Source: Staphylococcus carnosus (lineage in GTDB: Bacteria > Bacillota > Bacilli > Staphylococcales > Staphylococcaceae). Taken from it: a stretch of 64,000 nucleotides of DNA. The position numbers and the translations under genes are program-made. Location of the stretch: positions 1,674,001-1,738,000 of the forward strand of contig NZ_UHCT01000001.1 in assembly GCF_900458435.1 (NCBI RefSeq), written 5' to 3'. Of this stretch, positions 8,783 through 49,089 are shown in pieces. Each line of letters starts with the position of its first letter. The stretch's first letter is position 1. Below the pieces are notes generated by a model, which was not told the DNA's origin, made no database searches, and was given only the letters and a program-made list of their open reading frames with translations.

Positions 8783-9568
8783 CTAGATGTCTAATTTTTC
8801 AAGAACAATTGATTTAATCGGTTCAAAAGATTTTCTATGCTCAGGAATAATACCTAGACGTTTTATTCCTTCTAAATGTGCTTTCGTTCCATAACCGACA
8901 TTATGTTCAAAATCATAACCTGGATATTGTTCTGCAAGTTGTCGCATATAAGTATCTCGATGCTCTTTAGCTAAAATACTCGCCGCTGCAATCGAAACAC
9001 TCTTAGCATCACCTTTAATAATTGAAGTTTGAGCAATGTCTAATGGGAGTTCCATTGCATCAATCAATAAATGTGTAGGCGTAACATTTAGATTTTCAAT
9101 AGCACGCATCATCGCAACTTGTGTGGCTTGGTATATATTCAAATCATCAATTTCTTCTGGTGTTGCAATACCATATGCATATGCAGTTGTCTTTTCTATT
9201 AATGCTTCAGATAATTTTTGGCGGTTGGCAGCACTCACTTTTTTAGAATCATCTAATCCATAGTAAGCATGATCCGCATTTAAAATGACCGCACAAGCCA
9301 CAACAGGTCCTGCAAGCGGTCCACGGCCAACTTCATCAATACCGCATATCACCGCTTCAGGGTTGTCACTCAATATATTTTCTTCATAGCGTGTCATTTC
9401 TTCATAATGCGCAACCAATGCCGATTCTTTTTCCAACTGTTTTCGACGACTGGCAATGGCTTGCTGCACACCTTTACGTTCATCCTTATTCCATTCTGAT
9501 GCATCAAGTGCTTTTAAATTGTGTATTTCTTTTAATAACGCTTTTACTTCTTTTATAGAATGTGCCAT
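8783..9568 (-). CDS. rnhB: Ribonuclease HII
   Basis: Removes RNA from RNA-DNA hybrids and incises at single misincorporated ribonucleotides. The catalytic core begins at about residue 73 with [20 protein letters not shown] (Asp and Glu of the active site), and [11 protein letters not shown] holds another catalytic Asp. An N-terminal extension of about 70 residues is typical of Gram-positive RNase HII. The length is 261 residues. Its ATG overlaps the stop codon of rbgA by one base (TAATG), indicating translational coupling. Confidence 0.96.
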
Positions 9569-10437
9569 TATTTAACTTCGTCTGCCATTTCTTTATAAAT
9601 ATCAAAACTATGTGTTCCTAATTTTCCATTACGGATATCATTAATAATCATTTCAATAACCGCTTCATAATCTACTTCATTTCCACGTTGTAAAGCACCT
9701 CGTCTGCGACCGATTGCATCAAACCATTCCATGTTCTCTGCATCAGCATCAACATCTACATTAAAATTCTTCTGCAGTGCTTCAACATCATGTTCTTTGA
9801 AGAAGTCTAAACCATAAATAGCAACATCATCTAAGTGAACGATACTATCTTTAATTGCACCTGTTAGGCTTAATTTTTTACCCACAGTCTGATCTTCAAA
9901 CTTCGGCCAGAGAATCCCTGGTGTATCTAATAACTGTAATGACTTACCTACTTTAATCCATTGCTGCTGCTTGGTAACACCTGGTGTATTACCTGTTTTC
10001 GCAATTGCTTTATTCGCTAACTTATTAATTAAAGTTGATTTGCCGACATTAGGAATACCTACTATCATGGCACGGATTGCGCGCGGTTTTAATCCTTTCG
10101 CTTTGTCACGTTCAAACTTTTCTTTAGTCGCTTCAATTGCAGCTTGCTCCACTTGCTTAAGTCCTTTGCCGTGCTTAGCATCCACTGCAACAGGATAATA
10201 GCCTTTACTTCTGAAATAATCTTTCCATTTGGAGATTTCACTTAAATTTGCCATATCTTTTTTATTCAAAATAACCACACGTGGTTTATTTTGAATCACT
10301 TCATCTATCATTGAATTACGAGAACTATAAGGAATGCGTGCATCTACCAATTCAAATACAACATCCACTTTCTTTAATTGTTCCGACACTTCACGTTTGG
10401 CTTTTGCCATGTGTCCTGGATACCATTGTATAACCAT
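9568..10437 (-). CDS. rbgA: RbgA (YlqF), ribosome biogenesis GTPase
   Basis: Circularly permuted GTPase needed for late assembly of the 50S subunit. The permuted motif order is visible: G4 (NKKDM, about residue 59) comes before G1 ([14 protein letters not shown]) and G3 (DTPGI). The start [16 protein letters not shown] is the family hallmark; the second of two adjacent ATG codons gives it. It is co-transcribed with rnhB. It marks the conserved edge of the accessory block that runs to rplS. Confidence 0.96.
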
Positions 10438-10524
10438 CATTCATCACCTTTCAGTATTACTTTATTGATTCTTTCAGATTCTCTTAATTATACTATATTT
10501 CTTTTTTGTTGAAAAAATTAATAA

Positions 10525-10567: not shown

Positions 10568-11353
10568 TTAGTTATTTATTTCTTCAATTAATCCTGGCAA
10601 TTCTTCAATACTGTAAATAATATAATCTGCACCATTAGCTTCAAATTTTTCTTTCACTTTCATACCGATTTCTACCCTCTTATCTTCAGAAAGTTTTCGC
10701 CAATCCTCTTCATTATATCCAGCAATTGAACTGCCTTTTATTACGCCTACCGTAATAACACCTGCGTTAACACCTTCTTGAATATCAGACACCGTGTCAC
10801 CGACTTTTAAAACATGTTTAACACTTTGAAGTTCTAAATCTTCCATATTCTTAAATATCATATACGGATAAGGTCTGCCGAATCCTCCAACCATATCAGC
10901 AGTTACGACATTATCTGGTTGGTAACCTTGCAACGCTGTATTAGGTTTTACGACTTCCATCATTTCTTTTGTATAACCCGTCGTAGAACCTACTTTAATA
11001 CCTTTCGCTTTCAGCCAATTTGCTGTGTCCACGGCGCCTTGAATAGGAGTAGTGAAATTTTCTAATGTTTCCATCAACTGGTCTTCAAACTTCTCATAAA
11101 GTTGATCAATATCCGTTTCAGTTGCTTTCTTACCGTACTTTTCTTCCCAAAGTGATTGAATTCTCGGCATCTCTAACATGGCTTGAATATGATCTCGTTT
11201 CAACATCCCCATAAGCTCTCTCGCCTCTTGAATCGTTACATCTATGCCTGCATCTTTAAAAATATCAATGAAAACATGAACAGGCGCAAAGCAACCAAAA
11301 TCAATCATCGTACCTGCCCAATCAAAAATGACACCTTCTATTTTATTTAACAT
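10568..11353 (-). CDS. phnX: Phosphonoacetaldehyde hydrolase (phosphonatase)
   Basis: HAD-superfamily enzyme that splits phosphonoacetaldehyde into acetaldehyde and phosphate, the second step of 2-aminoethylphosphonate use. The nucleophile Asp11 is in VIFDWAGTMIDFG. The Schiff-base lysine of phosphonatases is Lys52 in MGMLKRDHI. HAD motif III/IV residues appear in LKVGDTVSDIQEGVNAG. An upstream in-frame ATG (11371) lies inside phnW; the ATG at 11353 is 4 bases after the phnW stop and has AAAGGG upstream, giving 261 residues. The frame is intact, in contrast to two transporter genes of the same operon. Confidence 0.93.
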   Translation of the reverse strand: MLNKIEGVIFDWAGTMIDFGCFAPVHVFIDIFKDAGIDVTIQEARELMGMLKRDHIQAMLEMPRIQSLWEEKYGKKATETDIDQLYEKFEDQLMETLENFTTPIQGAVDTANWLKAKGIKVGSTTGYTKEMMEVVKPNTALQGYQPDNVVTADMVGGFGRPYPYMIFKNMEDLELQSVKHVLKVGDTVSDIQEGVNAGVITVGVIKGSSIAGYNEEDWRKLSEDKRVEIGMKVKEKFEANGADYIIYSIEELPGLIEEINN

Positions 11354-11357
11354 GAAA

Positions 11358-12452
11358 TCAATCCCTTTCATTCATATATTTTTGAATATTATCTACTAAT
11401 GAAACAAAATCTTTATGATGCAAGTCACCGATATTGCCGATTCTGAACGATGGCGTATCCATTAATTTGCCTGGATATAATACAAAACCTGCTTCTTTCA
11501 TGTATTGATAAAAATCTTCAAAAACAAAATCTTTATCAGGGTATAAGAAAGTGGTAATAATAGGCGACTGATATTCATCATCGATATAAGGTTGGAAATT
11601 CAACTCTTTTAAGTGTTTTATAACGTAATTATTATTATCTTTGTATCGTTGGTATCTTGCAGGCGTACCGCCTTCTTCGTCCAATTCAATCAGTGCCTCT
11701 TGAAAAGCAGCAACGACATGTGTCGGAGAAGTAAAGCGCCACTTGCCGTCAACATCCATTACCTTCCATTGTTCAAATAAATCTAATGCTATACTACTTG
11801 CATTACCCTGTGTTTGCTTCAATATTTCTTTATTCGCTATCACAAAACCGAACCCAGGCACACCTTGAATACATTTATTCGCACTGCTTATTAAATAATC
11901 AATACCTAAATCATTAACCTTTATAGGTATACCGCCAAAACTGCTCATCGCATCAATAATCAAAGATACATTCTTACGTTTTCCAATCTCTGACAAAGGC
12001 GCTAAAGGATTCAAAATACCCGTAGTTGTTTCACAATGTACCATGGCCACATGTGTAATAGACGGATCTTGTTCGATGATTTCTTCTATTTTTTCAAAGT
12101 CCGGAACAGCATCATACGCTACACGCATTTCTGTGACTTTCTTCCCAATTGCATTGGCCATATCAATCATACGATTACCATAAGCACCGTTGCTTATAAT
12201 CAGCACATGATCATCTTTTCCTAATGCTGTTTGCAGCACACTTTCTACTACAAAACTACCGCTTCCTTGTTGTAAAACAGCGGTATAATCATCTGCTGAA
12301 ACACTTGCTACTTCTAACAATCTGTGACGGATATCTTGCGTTAATTGTTTATATTCTTCATCCCAAGTACATCTATCTTCCAACATTGTCTCTTTGACTG
12401 AATCTGTTGTTGTTAATGGTCCCGGTGTCAGCAATTTATATGTTTGTGTCAT
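11358..12452 (-). CDS. phnW: 2-Aminoethylphosphonate-pyruvate transaminase
   Basis: PLP-dependent aminotransferase converting AEP plus pyruvate to phosphonoacetaldehyde plus alanine. The start MTQTYKLLTPGPLTTTDSV, the cofactor region IIDAMSSFGGIP and the PLP lysine Lys193 in SSANKCIQGVPGFGF are typical of PhnW. GGAG precedes the ATG at 12452, giving 364 residues; the open frame continues upstream to 12509, but that part overlaps the end of the binding-protein gene. It is followed directly by phnX, the enzyme for its product. Confidence 0.93.
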   Translation of the reverse strand: MTQTYKLLTPGPLTTTDSVKETMLEDRCTWDEEYKQLTQDIRHRLLEVASVSADDYTAVLQQGSGSFVVESVLQTALGKDDHVLIISNGAYGNRMIDMANAIGKKVTEMRVAYDAVPDFEKIEEIIEQDPSITHVAMVHCETTTGILNPLAPLSEIGKRKNVSLIIDAMSSFGGIPIKVNDLGIDYLISSANKCIQGVPGFGFVIANKEILKQTQGNASSIALDLFEQWKVMDVDGKWRFTSPTHVVAAFQEALIELDEEGGTPARYQRYKDNNNYVIKHLKELNFQPYIDDEYQSPIITTFLYPDKDFVFEDFYQYMKEAGFVLYPGKLMDTPSFRIGNIGDLHHKDFVSLVDNIQKYMNERD

Positions 12453-12465
12453 TATGAAAACTCCT

Positions 12466-13478
12466 TTACTTTTTATCTTTTTCAATCTCTGCTTCTTTTT
12501 TAGCGTCATTAAAAATTGTTTGGTGTTTATCCAGTAAATTTACGGTTAAAGGTGTTTTCCATTCTTCAGGGTAGCTAGGCTCCATTTCTTTAGAAACTTT
12601 TTCCCCTTTGTACAATGGCACTGGATATTCTTTTAATAAATCTTTACGTCCGTATTTTTGAATCACTTCAACCATTTTCTCTGCTTTTTGTTGTTTCTTG
12701 CCGCCTTTTTTACAACTGCAGCAGCTTCTGTTAATGAAAAATTGCCTTCAGATGGGTCAATATACTTAATAGGTTCTCCATCTTTTTCTGCATCGATTGC
12801 TTGGTTTCTAAGTCCTGCCCCTACTGCCGCTTCTCCAGATTGTACTTTCTTAAGTGGTCCTGAGCCTGAACTTTCCAAATGAGGTCCAGCATTTACTATC
12901 AGTTTTTTGATAATTTGCTGACCTTCTTTATCTCCGTATTCACTAATAACCCCTTGCAATAGCAGCCATCCTGTTGAAGAGTCCATAATGTTCGGAAATG
13001 AAATTTCATTCTTATATTCTGGTTTGGTTAAATCTTTAATGCTTTTAGGTACAGGTAAATGTTTTTCTTTCAATACTTTAGTATTAACAAATAGTGACCC
13101 CATATTCCCTAAAATTGGAGACATATAGTCAGGATATTGTTTAAGTTCATGTTGATTCATCGTCGAATGTATCGGCACAAACATATGGTGCTCTTTTTGT
13201 GCACTTTCCAAATAATAGCTGGCTTGCGTAACAATATCAGCATCAATACTTTTTCCTTCAGCCATAATTTTCCCGCCGAGTTCAGAAGTAGATTGCGGCT
13301 GAACAATATATTGACCTTTATATCCATGGTGATCTAACGCTGTTTCCATTGCGGCAATTGCTTCTTCATCCGCATTCGTCTGGATAATAATTTTGTCAGA
13401 TGAGGCACCAAGTCCTACATATGAAAAATACAATAATACTGCACAAATAATCCCAAGTATCACAAGCTTAATTTTCAT
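12466..13478 (-). pseudogene. ABC-type phosphonate (AEP) substrate-binding protein, frame change near the C-terminus
   Basis: Extracellular binding protein of the iron/AEP (PhnS/FbpA) type. The first frame (13478-12663) gives 271 residues: an N-terminal hydrophobic segment without a lipobox cysteine, then a type II binding-protein fold (for example SFPNIMDSSTGWLLLQG). The remaining 3' part reads on in another frame (ending at 12466) and supplies the expected C-terminal helix region (KMVEVIQKYGRKDLLKEY). The junction is at 12705-12711, where the codons run GTA AAA AAG: a -1 shift on this A AAA AAG heptamer, or one extra A, joins both parts into a 337-residue protein. It is either a single-base deletion, a sequencing error in a 6-A run, or a recoding site. 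Its role in AEP uptake is inferred from phnW and phnX. Confidence 0.8.
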
Positions 13479-15100
13479 GACATTTCCCTCCTTTTTTCAT
13501 AACGCATCCATATGGTGCTGATCAGTCTGACTGCTAAATTCGTTATTAAAATTAAAATAGAGAGAATAAATATGTCTGTGAAACGATTGAAATGCTGCAG
13601 CTGGTTGATTTGAGTCGAAACAATCTGTGTTGATGTTGAAACTAAAAATATAACGCCGCTGATTGTTACCATTGCATTGATAAAATAATAATTTACTATT
13701 TCTATAATGGTTGATTTCATGTTAGGCAAAATAATTTTAAAGAGCGTTTCAAACCAGTTATCTTGCAGTAAAGCACTAGTAATATCCCACGACTTGTCTA
13801 ATTTATCCATTGCACCTTTTGCCATTAAATAAGGTGTTGTAAAGTAATGCACAATAATACTTAAAATTACAATTAAAAATGTGCCCTTTAAAGAGCTGCC
13901 TTGGAAAAACAATAAATAGGAAAGTCCAAGAATCATACCAGGAACTGTATTCGTCAGCATGGCTATTAAATTAATTGCTTTTCTGCCTTTCAACTTGGTT
14001 CTGCTATTGATGACTGCGCTGAAAAAAGCAATGATGGTACCAAATAACGCTGTACAAACTGCTACAAATACAGATTGGATATAAACATGAATTAAAATTT
14101 CATCCTTAAACAGCGCCACGATATGTTTTAATGTGAAGCCCATTTTATAAGGATAATTTTCAGTAAAAGGTACAACAATCATGACAAGAAAAATACTTAA
14201 TATACATGTACATAACACGAATAAAAGTATGCTGATTACAAAATTATGCACAGGACGTTTTTCTGGTTGATGGTGGCCAGCAGCCTGGTGACTGACATTC
14301 CATCGTTCGATTACTGCAAGAAAAACAAAACCGAATAGTGCGGGTATTAGCATTACAAAAGCAATCACGGCACCTTGCGCGAATTTAGGAATTGAACCTA
14401 GAATTGTTTGATATAACAAGATGGAGATCATAGTATCATCTGCGCCGATTGAAGCGGGTATCCCGAAATCTGTAAAACTTAAAATAAAAGATAAAACAAA
14501 TGCATTGCCAATCGGAATAAACATAGGTCTTAATATTGTGTGATAAAACCTGCGTACCCCACTATCTTGCATGAGTTGAGAAATATAATAAAATCGTTGA
14601 TCAATATACTGAAATGCATTATTGATAATAATAAAAGCAGCTGGCAAAGTGTAAATGACATAACCAATCAACATGCCATGTTCACCATAAATTGTAAATA
14701 GAGGTTGCCCTATTAACTTTGCGATAATACCTTCATTTCCAAACAAATACATCAATAAAAAAACATAGGTAATTGTAGGAACTAACATCGGCAAAACCAT
14801 CATGCCATTAGAATAACTTTTCAACCATTGTTGTATTGCAGTCGTTTGCAATGCGTATGCTGCAAAAAAGGCTAAGATACTTGTAATAATTGCCGTTAAT
14901 AATGACAGTTTCAAACTTCGCATGAGTGCAGTTGTAACATCCGGGTTTGATAACACTTCTTTAAAATATAAGTTACTAATATGACCATCTGCGATAATTG
15001 AGCGTCCCAGTAAAACAATTACAGGCAATACTAAAAACACGATAAAAAACACAAACAGTAAAATTTGAATAATACGCTGACTCCATAATTTATGCGCCAT
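13475..15100 (-). CDS. ABC transporter permease with two fused permease domains (AEP importer)
   Basis: Membrane subunit predicted to import 2-aminoethylphosphonate. Two binding-protein-dependent permease domains lie in one chain. Each has about six transmembrane segments and an ATPase-contact (EAA-like) loop: QLMQDSGVRRFYHTILRP in the first half and ALLQDNWFETLFKIILP in the second. This is the FbpB/PhnU-PhnV style of iron and phosphonate importers. The ATG at 15100 (541 residues) is preferred over one at 15112; it overlaps the ATPase gene by 11 bases, and its end overlaps the binding-protein start by 4. The frame is open throughout. Substrate is inferred from the operon only. Confidence 0.85.
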   Translation of the reverse strand: MAHKLWSQRIIQILLFVFFIVFLVLPVIVLLGRSIIADGHISNLYFKEVLSNPDVTTALMRSLKLSLLTAIITSILAFFAAYALQTTAIQQWLKSYSNGMMVLPMLVPTITYVFLLMYLFGNEGIIAKLIGQPLFTIYGEHGMLIGYVIYTLPAAFIIINNAFQYIDQRFYYISQLMQDSGVRRFYHTILRPMFIPIGNAFVLSFILSFTDFGIPASIGADDTMISILLYQTILGSIPKFAQGAVIAFVMLIPALFGFVFLAVIERWNVSHQAAGHHQPEKRPVHNFVISILLFVLCTCILSIFLVMIVVPFTENYPYKMGFTLKHIVALFKDEILIHVYIQSVFVAVCTALFGTIIAFFSAVINSRTKLKGRKAINLIAMLTNTVPGMILGLSYLLFFQGSSLKGTFLIVILSIIVHYFTTPYLMAKGAMDKLDKSWDITSALLQDNWFETLFKIILPNMKSTIIEIVNYYFINAMVTISGVIFLVSTSTQIVSTQINQLQHFNRFTDIFILSILILITNLAVRLISTIWMRYEKRREMS

Positions 15101-15858
15101 GTTGCTCACCAAATAATGTGTAAATATTATGACGTTTAATCTCGAGCTGGTTTAGGATGAACTTTTTTACAAATTGATTGGCTGGTTGTTTAATTATCAT
15201 ATTCGGAGTATCATATTGTGCAATTTCACCATCTTCAATTACAACAATTTTATCAGCCATTGTAAGTGCCTCTTCTGGATCATGTGTCACAATGATAGTT
15301 GTAAGCGATAACGATTTAGCTACCTTTACAATCATGTCTTTAATACGCTCTTTAATCATCCCATCTAATGCGCTTAAAGGTTCATCCATTAATAAAACCT
15401 CAGGTTCCATTACAATCGTTCGAGCTATAGAAACACGTTGCTTTTGGCCTCCAGAAAGTTCATGGATTTTTTTATCAAGATGTGGTCTTAAATCAAGAAG
15501 TTCGATTAAATCTGTTATTTCTTTAGAATCAGTATTCTTTTTAGTATTTTTCAAGCCATACAAAATATTTTCTCGAGCATTCAAATGCGGAAATAAACAA
15601 TAATCTTGAAAGACAATGTTAAAGCCTCGTTTGTTCATCGGAACATTATGGACTGGTTTTCCATTAAAATGAATCTCACCTTTAGAGACATCAGTTAAAC
15701 CAAGAATCATATTGAGTAATGTTGTCTTGCCATATCCACTCGGTCCTAGCAAAGCTATAATTTCACCATTTTCAATATCTAAATTTAATATCTAAATTTA
15801 TATTTTTCAATACTTCGTTATCATTAAAACTTTTACTTACATTTTTTAGTGCTAACAC
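15090..15858 (-). pseudogene. ABC transporter ATPase of the AEP importer, disrupted by a 13-bp tandem duplication
   Basis: ATPase subunit with Walker A (LLGPSGYGKTTLL), Q-loop (VFQDYCLFPHL), signature LSGGQKQRVSIARTI, Walker B (VLLMDEPLSALDG) and the H-loop (IIVTHDPEEAL). The true start is the GTG at 15858 with GGAGG at 15867-15871, but the frame ends after about 28 codons. A perfect 13-bp tandem repeat at 15774-15799 shifts the frame just before Walker A. With one copy removed, the product reads on through NINLDIENGEIIALLGPSG and is 251 residues long. As sequenced, only a fragment without the first strands could be made from an internal ATG at 15752. It is the first gene of the operon. Confidence 0.88.
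15774..15799 (-). repeat. Perfect 13-bp tandem duplication inside the ATPase gene
   Basis: AATATCTAAATTT occurs twice back to back (15774-15786 and 15787-15799, plus strand). A single copy would keep the ATPase frame, since the distance from the GTG start to the downstream open frame becomes divisible by three only after removing 13 bases. Confidence 0.97.
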
Positions 15859-15871
15859 AACCCGCACCTCC

Positions 15872-15892
15872 TACTTTGATATATTCAAAGTA
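15872..15892. promoter_or_regulatory. Inverted repeat at the 5' end of the AEP operon
   Basis: Perfect 8-bp inverted repeat TACTTTGA / TCAAAGTA with a 5-bp spacer. It abuts the ribosome binding site of the ATPase gene, so it may be an operator or an mRNA hairpin near the 5' end. No regulator is proven. Confidence 0.45.
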
Positions 15893-15939
15893 TAGGAGAG
15901 AAATATTAAGTCAGTGTTAAGTATGTGTAAGTGTTGATT

Positions 15940-15975
15940 AACTTTATACAAACTTATTACCAACTTTATACCAAC
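15940..15975. promoter_or_regulatory. Candidate DeoR operator: two direct repeats 22 bp apart
   Basis: AACTTTATACAAAC (15940-15953) and AACTTTATACCAAC (15962-15975) differ at one base and are spaced 22 bp, about two helical turns, in the region between the divergent regulator and the AEP operon. Binding by the adjacent DeoR-type protein is an inference. Confidence 0.45.
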
Positions 15976-16026
15976 ATACTAATAAATATGGTATATTTCA
16001 ATTAAAATTACAAAGGAGTGTGTCAT

Positions 16027-16779
16027 TTGTTACCTAGAGAACGTCGTACTGAAATAATAAATTTATTAGCACAAAATGAATTTTTAGAATTAAAAACCTT
16101 ACATAAAGACTTGGGAATATCCATGGAGACATTAAGAAGAGATATTCAACAATTAGTCAAAGAGGACCTCGTATTGAAAGAATATGGCGGAATACGAATT
16201 AATAAGGAAGTAAATGGTGAGTCTGCAATCGAACGTCGACTAGAAAAACATTTATCCGAAAAGATAGAGATTGCCAAAAAAGCAGTCGATGTTATTAAAA
16301 ATGGAGATTGTATATTTTTAGATAGCGGGTCTACAACATTACAAATTGCTAAAATGTTAGATACTAAAGAAAATTTGACCATCATCACAAATTCAATTCC
16401 TGTTTTAGTTCAATGCATCAATCAAAACCATACACTGGTTTCTATCGGAGGAAAAGTAAGATCTTCTGAACAATCGTTAACTCAATTCGATTTTCTTTTT
16501 AACTTCGAAAGACTAAATATTAATAAAGGATTCTTTTGTTGCAGCGGCATCTCAGTTGCCCATGGTGTCACTGATTTTAGTTTCGAAGAAGTAGAAACTA
16601 GACGTCGAATTCTTGAAATTTCTCAGGAAAAATACTTAACTGCAGATAGCAGTAAAATTGATGAAGTCGTAACAGCAAAAATAGGTAATCTCAATGACTT
16701 TGCTAAATTAATCAGTGATGGGAAAATACCGGAAATAGAGTGTAAAAACATTAAAAATCAGGGAATAGTAATATTATAA
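16027..16779 (+). CDS. DeoR-family transcriptional regulator
   Basis: Sugar-phosphate-type repressor family. The N-terminal winged helix has LPRERRTEIINLLAQ and a recognition region LGISMETLRRDIQQLVKEDLV. The C-terminal effector domain (isomerase-like) has IFLDSGSTTLQIA and LTIITNSIPV. A TTG at 16027 with AAAGGAG eight bases upstream gives 250 residues and the usual MLPRERR start; a GTG at 16018 overlaps that binding site. It is divergent from the AEP operon and 53 bases upstream of a hydrolase gene. Control of the AEP operon is the likely role, judged by position alone. Confidence 0.88.
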   Translation: MLPRERRTEIINLLAQNEFLELKTLHKDLGISMETLRRDIQQLVKEDLVLKEYGGIRINKEVNGESAIERRLEKHLSEKIEIAKKAVDVIKNGDCIFLDSGSTTLQIAKMLDTKENLTIITNSIPVLVQCINQNHTLVSIGGKVRSSEQSLTQFDFLFNFERLNINKGFFCCSGISVAHGVTDFSFEEVETRRRILEISQEKYLTADSSKIDEVVTAKIGNLNDFAKLISDGKIPEIECKNIKNQGIVIL

Positions 16780-16832
16780 ATGCATTTTACAATAAGTATA
16801 TGCAGTATTAATTCTAATAAGAGGTGTTCTTT

Positions 16833-17723
16833 ATGGCTTACGAATTCAAACGATCTGATGTCACTTTCGATTCAGACGGTACGCCATGCAGTGCGTGGTT
16901 TTATCTTCCTGATATTTCTGAAAAACCACCTATTATTGTGATGGCCCCTGGATTAGGCGGAGTAAAAGATATGCGTTTAGATGACTATGCTGCTAAGTTT
17001 GCTGAAGCAGGCTTTGCTAGTTTAGTATTTGATTATCGAAACTTTGGAAATAGCGGCGGCAACAGAAGACAATATATTAATGTTAAAGATCAACTAGAAG
17101 ATTGGAATTATGCAATCAAATTTGCTAAGTCTATTGATAGTATTGATGAAACACAATTATTGTTATTCGGTACTTCTTTCAGTGGAGGACATGTTATGAC
17201 ACTTTCATCAATGCGTAATGATATTACAGCAACGATTACACAATGCCCTTATACAGATACTTTCGCAACTTTAAAAGCAATATCTTCAAAAAGTGAATCA
17301 AAACTCACATTATTAGCACTATTTGAGAAGTTGCTTTCTATCAGTAGTTATCACAGTATCATGGTACCGCTAGCTGGCGAACCTGGTTCTATATCTTTAA
17401 TGGCTGTGCCAGATTATCAACAATATTTAGAACTTGTTCCCGAACGTTCTACTTTTGAAAATAAAGCACAAGCAGCTACGATTTTTGAATTTCTTAAATA
17501 TTCACCTGGGCGTTACGCACAAGAAATCAATAATCCAATATTTTACGCTGTATGCAGTAATGATAATTTAGCACCTGCAAAAACAACAATACGACATGCT
17601 AAACGTTCACAAAAACCTACAATTCGTGAATTCAACTGTGGTCATTTTGAGATATATTCAGATAATTATTTCGAAGAAGCCACAGATGAATATGTCAAAT
17701 TTTTCAAAGAAAATACAATTTAA
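16833..17723 (+). CDS. Alpha/beta hydrolase
   Basis: Predicted cytosolic serine hydrolase of the dienelactone hydrolase/peptidase S9-like group. The nucleophile elbow is GTSFSGG, the acid is probably the Asp in CSNDNLAP and the histidine is in NCGHFEIY. The oxyanion region is MAPGLGGVKDM. The ATG at 16833 follows AGAGGTG with an ideal spacer and gives 296 residues. It lies 53 bases after the DeoR gene and is probably co-transcribed with it. The substrate is unknown, and nothing in the sequence ties it to phosphonates. Confidence 0.8.
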   Translation: MAYEFKRSDVTFDSDGTPCSAWFYLPDISEKPPIIVMAPGLGGVKDMRLDDYAAKFAEAGFASLVFDYRNFGNSGGNRRQYINVKDQLEDWNYAIKFAKSIDSIDETQLLLFGTSFSGGHVMTLSSMRNDITATITQCPYTDTFATLKAISSKSESKLTLLALFEKLLSISSYHSIMVPLAGEPGSISLMAVPDYQQYLELVPERSTFENKAQAATIFEFLKYSPGRYAQEINNPIFYAVCSNDNLAPAKTTIRHAKRSQKPTIREFNCGHFEIYSDNYFEEATDEYVKFFKENTI

Positions 17724-17774: not shown

Positions 17775-18182
17775 TTAATTTTCAATCGGCACCCATACCT
17801 GTGCTACATAATCATCAACTTGTGTATTACCATGCGGATATAATTCTATACCTGGTGCATCACGGTGTCTATAACCTAAATCAGATAAAAAGTTAGGATT
17901 ATAAAGTTGCTCTGTTGTTTTCTGCAAAGTATAAGGTAGTGGTCCTATCGCATCTGCAACAATATAATCACCTTCAGGTAATGTGTAAGGATGCAGATCA
18001 GCGACTGACTTTTTATCTGAAGTTACAGCATTGCTTAACGCTTTTAATTCTTCTGGTTTATCTGAATTATTGAATGCTTCCCACGCTTTAGGCAAACCTT
18101 GCTGCGCATCTTGCATTGTGGCATATTTACTTAATATACCTATAACATTTGTTGAATCTATATGCTTAATTTCGTATTCCAT
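17775..18182 (-). CDS. GyrI-like / AraC effector-binding domain protein
   Basis: Single-domain protein of 135 residues resembling the effector-binding (GyrI-like, SOUL/BacM-type) fold of AraC activators and BmrR. Recognisable parts are the start MEYEIKHIDSTNVIGI, the central LPEGDYIVADAIGPLP and the acidic end LYPHGNTQVDDYVAQVWVPI. No DNA-binding domain is attached. Such stand-alone domains bind hydrophobic or cationic small molecules, but the ligand cannot be read from the sequence. It sits alone between two terminators, so it is probably a single-gene transcript. Confidence 0.65.
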   Translation of the reverse strand: MEYEIKHIDSTNVIGILSKYATMQDAQQGLPKAWEAFNNSDKPEELKALSNAVTSDKKSVADLHPYTLPEGDYIVADAIGPLPYTLQKTTEQLYNPNFLSDLGYRHRDAPGIELYPHGNTQVDDYVAQVWVPIEN

Positions 18183-48755: not shown

Positions 48756-49059
48756 TTTTTTGTTCCTCCTTAAAATAGGTATGGTAAGCTGTTGGATAAA
48801 GGCTTACAATCATTACTATTATTATATAATGAATTAAGTTTCTATGCCTTTATTTAATATGTCGGAGAGTTTGGCAAACCCTATATTTCTTTATCTTTTC
48901 ATAGATGCAGCGTATATAAAACGCATACATACACATTTAAGAATTATATCATACTTTCTACTTTGTATAGAATAACCGAAAACATTTTCGAATGCTACAT
49001 TTTTTTATTGCTATTCCGCTTAAAATGTGTTAAATTTACAAAGTATATCATAAGTCAGT
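48756..49059. other. Divergent promoter region between yloU and rpmB
   Basis: About 300 AT-rich bases hold the promoters of both genes. A short inverted repeat CGAAAACATTTTCG is seen near 48977. No known leader RNA was recognised. Confidence 0.45.
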
Positions 49060-49089
49060 GTGTTTATATTTATTAAAGGAGGTACTTTC

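Follow-up and report, generated by a model that had tools for sequence, protein, structure and literature searches.

The stretch of DNA analyzed here, 64,000 nucleotides of a staphylococcal chromosome (the window), carries on its minus strand an operon in the order ATPase, permease, substrate-binding protein, phnW and phnX, with a DeoR-type regulator gene placed divergently upstream. Sequence relationships point to an organism of the Staphylococcus carnosus/condimenti group. The first three genes would encode a probable ATP-binding cassette (ABC) importer for 2-aminoethylphosphonate (AEP), a reasonable assignment in which the substrate is deduced from sequence. A perfect 13-bp tandem duplication breaks the ATPase gene and the loss of a single base breaks the gene for the binding protein. 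We consider it very probable that these lesions record a recent gene loss of the ordinary kind, the pseudogenisation of an importer that the cell can do without.

Two lesions in the importer genes

The ATPase gene begins with a proper ribosome-binding site and start codon (AGGAGG, then GTG at 15858), as the original prediction had it. That prediction also counted 25 normal codons; the start is normal, but only 24 codons match a 98%-identical sister ATPase (P0001), and these are followed by four foreign codons and a TGA at 15772-15774, which is codon 29. The N-terminal remnant thus occupies 15772..15858 on the minus strand (GTG start, 28 codons, TGA). A different frame, open down to 15090 (15090..15785, minus strand; 231 codons, Walker A sequence GPSGYGKT), carries the remainder of the gene from roughly residue 20 onward, Walker A included, so the gene from Walker A onward is indeed out of frame, as had been claimed.

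The frame-shifting duplication lies within the ATPase gene at 15774..15800 (minus strand) and was found both by a repeat scan and by alignment to S. debuckii. Its unit is AATATCTAAATTT, with a period of 13 and 2.1 perfect copies; as 13 is not a multiple of 3, a change in its length alters the frame. Among perfect tandem repeats of period 10-60 it is the single one in the window; a 264-kb portion of the genome holds three, of which it alone has a period that is not a multiple of 3. When the window was shuffled 30 times with its dinucleotides preserved and scanned for periods of 8 to 40, repeats of period 12 or longer never appeared, and those of period 10 or longer averaged 0.33 per shuffle; a chance origin of the repeat was ruled out on the first of these counts. 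The S. debuckii gene (G020, locus L085) has one copy, and in the alignment the window has 13 additional bases at the same place.

Walker A reads GPSGYGKT in the window versus GPSGCGKT in the sister protein and S. debuckii, a cysteine to tyrosine change. A motif picked out 107 distinct ABC ATPase segments in the loci collected, and in these the residue was serine in 52, cysteine in 48, glycine in 3, alanine in 2 and tyrosine in 2, the tyrosine carriers being the window's own gene and that of a metagenome-assembled genome (L068). Beyond the duplication and Walker A, the window's lineage has one other change in the ATPase relative to the sister, which itself has two. Other ATPases in the window's genome are at most 49% identical to the sister ATPase.

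The second frame-breaking lesion of the operon, absent from the original prediction, is in the substrate-binding protein gene (12663..13478, minus strand). One base is lost near residue 259 of 337 and the frame stops after 271 codons; near 12700-12712 the alignment has one base fewer in a short A/G homopolymer run. The 3' remnant lies in another frame (12466..12699, minus strand), where 77 codons match the end of the sister's binding protein (P0037) before a stop.

This lesion bears on the suggestion, made in the original prediction, that the duplication might be a reversible on/off state. Under such phase variation the 13-bp duplication would be gained and lost by slippage and part of the population would import AEP. 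The repeat is perfect and adjacent, a type able to revert, and the sister gene is unbroken. Reversible sequence duplications are described in pneumococcal capsule operons in the part of PMC4243769 consulted, and a passage of PMC4022640 cites an expected reversion frequency at or below about 1e-5, for insertions nine bases long at most. Such reversion of short duplications is known from other bacteria; nothing here shows it for the 13-bp one. A phase-variable gene should, however, sit in an otherwise intact system, and here the binding-protein frame is broken in the assembly and substitutions have changed both Walker A and the permease. Moreover, there are two copies only, with no long repeat tract, and the ATPase frame is broken in none of nine related operons. 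Even if the 13-bp repeat were repaired, one would not expect a working importer, because the binding protein is broken and Walker A and the permease are changed. The reversible state is therefore unsupported; it was rejected as the best reading on the second frame lesion, and it is this lesion that makes a switch very unlikely.

The operon in related staphylococci

The sister proteins are full length (ATPase P0001, 251 residues; binding protein P0037, 337 residues; both 98% identical to the window's), and the sister permease (P0164) is 99% identical. The longest contig recorded for each of the three is 40,971 bases, and from this equal length they would most simply belong to a single contig, that of a sister strain whose operon is unbroken. 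With regard to copy-number variants of the repeat, the window's gene has two copies and the sister's protein is full length.

In all nine related operon loci (L085-L093) the ATPase is present end to end in a single frame with no stops, and the binding protein covers at least residues 2-328 of 340, again in a single frame without stops in nine of nine. The permease is single-frame in eight. The ATPase and binding-protein frames of the window are thus broken where those of its relatives are unbroken, which is the pattern of a recent pseudogene, as is the presence of further lesions in the same gene and pathway (binding protein, Walker A and permease changes). On these alignments the duplication is a derived lesion in the probable AEP importer operon, absent from the relatives examined. 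The original prediction was to be abandoned if all close relatives carried two copies together with wide further decay of the gene; half of this was found at most, since the relatives are single-copy and most of the additional decay lies in the operon outside the ATPase gene.

The same nine loci bear on the idea that the split ATPase is still functional, through reinitiation at TTG 15752 or through ribosomal frameshifting. A 220-codon frame with this possible TTG start follows close after the stop and covers the protein from Walker A onward. It would, however, lack the first 31 residues, which are kept in all nine loci, and the binding-protein gene is broken as well; we regard the chance of a two-piece ATPase as close to negligible.

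A search of 84 Staphylococcus genomes, the window's own included, found the permease in 10 and phnX in 11. Over the flank at 8800-10440, identity to the window was 92% for S. condimenti (G017, probably DSM 11674), 82% for S. debuckii and 78% for a relative that is probably Staphylococcus sp. IVB6181 (G065). In the 80 kb of S. condimenti that were compared, there was no match longer than 150 bases to window positions 11370-17709. Its whole genome yielded no permease, no binding protein and, for phnW, nothing beyond a 22%-identical protein, a similar one being present in the window's genome too; phnX is kept at 97% identity. At S. condimenti 609680-609849, the importer, phnW, the matching regulator and the hydrolase region are absent and phnX is left alone. 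The permease of strain IVB6181 is split over two frames near residue 77 (L119, 1-488).

Background decay and assembly quality

When S. condimenti frames were compared with 264 kb of the window's genome, 7 of 171 were flagged as broken, leaving out a further 70 open reading frames (ORFs) without a match at 70% identity. Three looked real after inspection (genes of 492, 270 and 169 residues), and we judged the other four to be start or antisense artefacts. The reverse comparison flagged 3 of 168, with 59 left out, and one of the three overlapped the broken 270-residue gene. Loss of the importer fits these surroundings, in which S. condimenti is without it, the IVB6181 permease is split and three further genes in 264 kb look broken.

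Smaller changes were also seen. The gene at window positions 17775-18182, which we take to be GyrI-like, is about 21 codons shorter than in S. condimenti and in frame. At positions 1594930-1595040 of the main contig (C1) of the window's genome, a gene that is presumably cardiolipin-synthase-like has its frame broken by a piece that, by eye, seems to duplicate a stretch lying further along in it.

Across the whole window, 33 of 97 ORFs were flagged against S. debuckii and 43 of 106 against strain IVB6181; by our reading nearly all of these come down to antisense ORFs, to differing starts or to one gene rich in repeats, and the two loci inspected were start differences. ORFs matching in two frames were the ATPase, the binding protein and a 105-residue ORF against S. 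debuckii, and the binding protein only against IVB6181, a run in which the short N-terminal piece of the ATPase was under the cut-off and the gene therefore scored as intact-like; the test is blind near gene ends and may miss breaks. The 105-residue S. debuckii ORF matches window positions 48760-49073 (plus strand) and is probably antisense. From this comparison, general assembly noise was judged unlikely. The second contig of the assembly (5,450 bases) resembles Staphylococcus plasmids, and the best-ranked records carry rep and cadD under the match.

A sequencing or assembly artefact would mean that at least one of the two lesions, the 13-bp duplication and the one-base loss, does not exist in the living strain. 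Reads often go wrong in homopolymers, and the binding-protein lesion does lie in such a run of A/G; the window's permease allele also occurs on a contig of 2,571,392 bases, nine bases longer than the window's chromosome. Read errors do not, however, typically take the form of a perfect 13-bp duplication. The clearly two-frame genes of the window are these two, in one operon, which random error would not favor, and the assembly is in two contigs at 99.99% completeness. An artefact is very unlikely on this evidence.

The importer substrate and the neighboring genes

The best NCBIfam models for the ATPase, permease and binding protein were PhnT2, PhnU2 and PhnS2 (TIGR03265, TIGR03262 and TIGR03261, respectively). 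The ATPase scored 257.7 (window piece) and 282.4 (sister) against a PhnT2 cut-off of 457.7, the permease 348 against a PhnU2 cut-off of 593.25, and the binding protein 109.6 (window) and 113 (sister) against a PhnS2 cut-off of 392.75, so that none was reached. For the sister ATPase, PhnT2 was barely above a spermidine/putrescine ATPase model (280.4). As the ATPase hardly separates the two, the case for AEP as substrate comes from the permease, the binding protein and the neighbor genes. A search for phosphonate-type binding proteins elsewhere in the window's genome gave one match over the cut-off and one under it.

The importer adjoins two genes that pass their curated cut-offs. One is phnW, for 2-aminoethylphosphonate--pyruvate transaminase (11358..12452, minus strand; TIGR02326, 506.9 bits against 400.8); its mechanical ORF reaches upstream to 12509, and the ATG at 12452 is the likely start. 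The other is phnX, for phosphonoacetaldehyde hydrolase (10568..11371, minus strand; TIGR01422, 355.9 bits against 220). Both frames are open, as is that of the PhnU2-like permease gene (13475..15112, minus strand; 545 residues as listed). In the numbering of the 541-residue alleles, the window's permease has the derived residues V113, M224 and N286. Of 13 close alleles, the comparison took in the 11 that have 541 residues and left out two that have 539; V113 and M224 were also present in two other alleles.

The divergent regulator gene (16018..16779, plus strand) is an open frame of DeoR/GlpR type, with NCBIfam matches that are all below their cut-offs. Between it and the operon, at 15940-15975, are three imperfect 11-bp direct repeats, a possible candidate site for the regulator. 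Parts of the intergenic stretch around them are, by eye, common to S. debuckii and S. simulans.

Discussion

The importer is most likely dead; the frames of phnW, phnX and the regulator are still open. A replication error probably produced the 13-bp duplication in one lineage of a species of the S. carnosus/condimenti group, and the duplication would have been kept as AEP import was not needed. It leaves most of the ATPase out of frame, with translation ending at codon 29; the binding-protein gene of the same operon has been broken too, by a one-base loss, and the ATPase and permease have gathered further lineage-specific substitutions. We infer a cell that lacks AEP uptake through this system and is under relaxed selection, in which the lesions may have come in any order.

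Several points weigh against recent pseudogenisation as told here. The AEP substrate is not certain, with all three importer proteins under the cut-offs of the AEP models. The one-base lesion of the binding protein sits in a homopolymer and may be a sequencing error. The metagenome-assembled ATPase gene with the Walker A tyrosine is whole despite it; this rare change need not be fatal and is no proof of death. Finally, the ATPase shows little wide decay, which suggests that the loss is recent, and it could be argued that the state is a temporary one.

A different view is that AEP import is a standing polymorphism, maintained through slippage-prone lesions such as the 13-bp repeat, the homopolymer run and the frame shift in the IVB6181 permease. 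We hold this to be highly improbable; if it were true, populations that have exhausted their phosphate could get the importer back.

If the importer was recently lost by ordinary pseudogenisation, the locus is a clean case of such loss in staphylococci. One small group shows the operon unbroken in S. debuckii, broken at two genes in the window, broken in the permease in IVB6181 and reduced to phnX in S. condimenti. It also advises caution: the rest of a pathway should be checked before a short tandem duplication is called a switch. Among the matches listed, the titles and opening lines of abstracts contained no report of this importer being broken in this group. The S. condimenti genome is stated to have 46 pseudogenes (PMC5635325, in part), and the passages on these and on the truncated genes of S. 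carnosus TM300 do not name the operon.

The nearest known system is the putative AEP ABC importer of PhnT2/PhnU2/PhnS2 type. The operon resembles it in the best models for all three proteins and in having phnW and phnX, both open, directly downstream; it differs in scoring below the cut-offs and in having two of three importer genes broken. For Xenorhabdus lrp, the passages of PMC6786866 consulted describe plain mutants, 3 of 25 being tandem duplications; we did not use it as a precedent against reversion, since the eight isolates tested there for reversal hold no duplication.

Duplications that do revert offer another comparison. Waite et al. (2001, 2003) reportedly described tandem-duplication phase variants of pneumococcal capsule genes (the type 3 locus, cap8E and tts). 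As far as the accounts of these variants consulted go, the likeness is that a short duplication in a coding sequence turns a gene off. Reversion is described there, whereas in the window's operon further lesions stand in the way, and the capsule is a surface structure, whereas the system described here is a nutrient importer.
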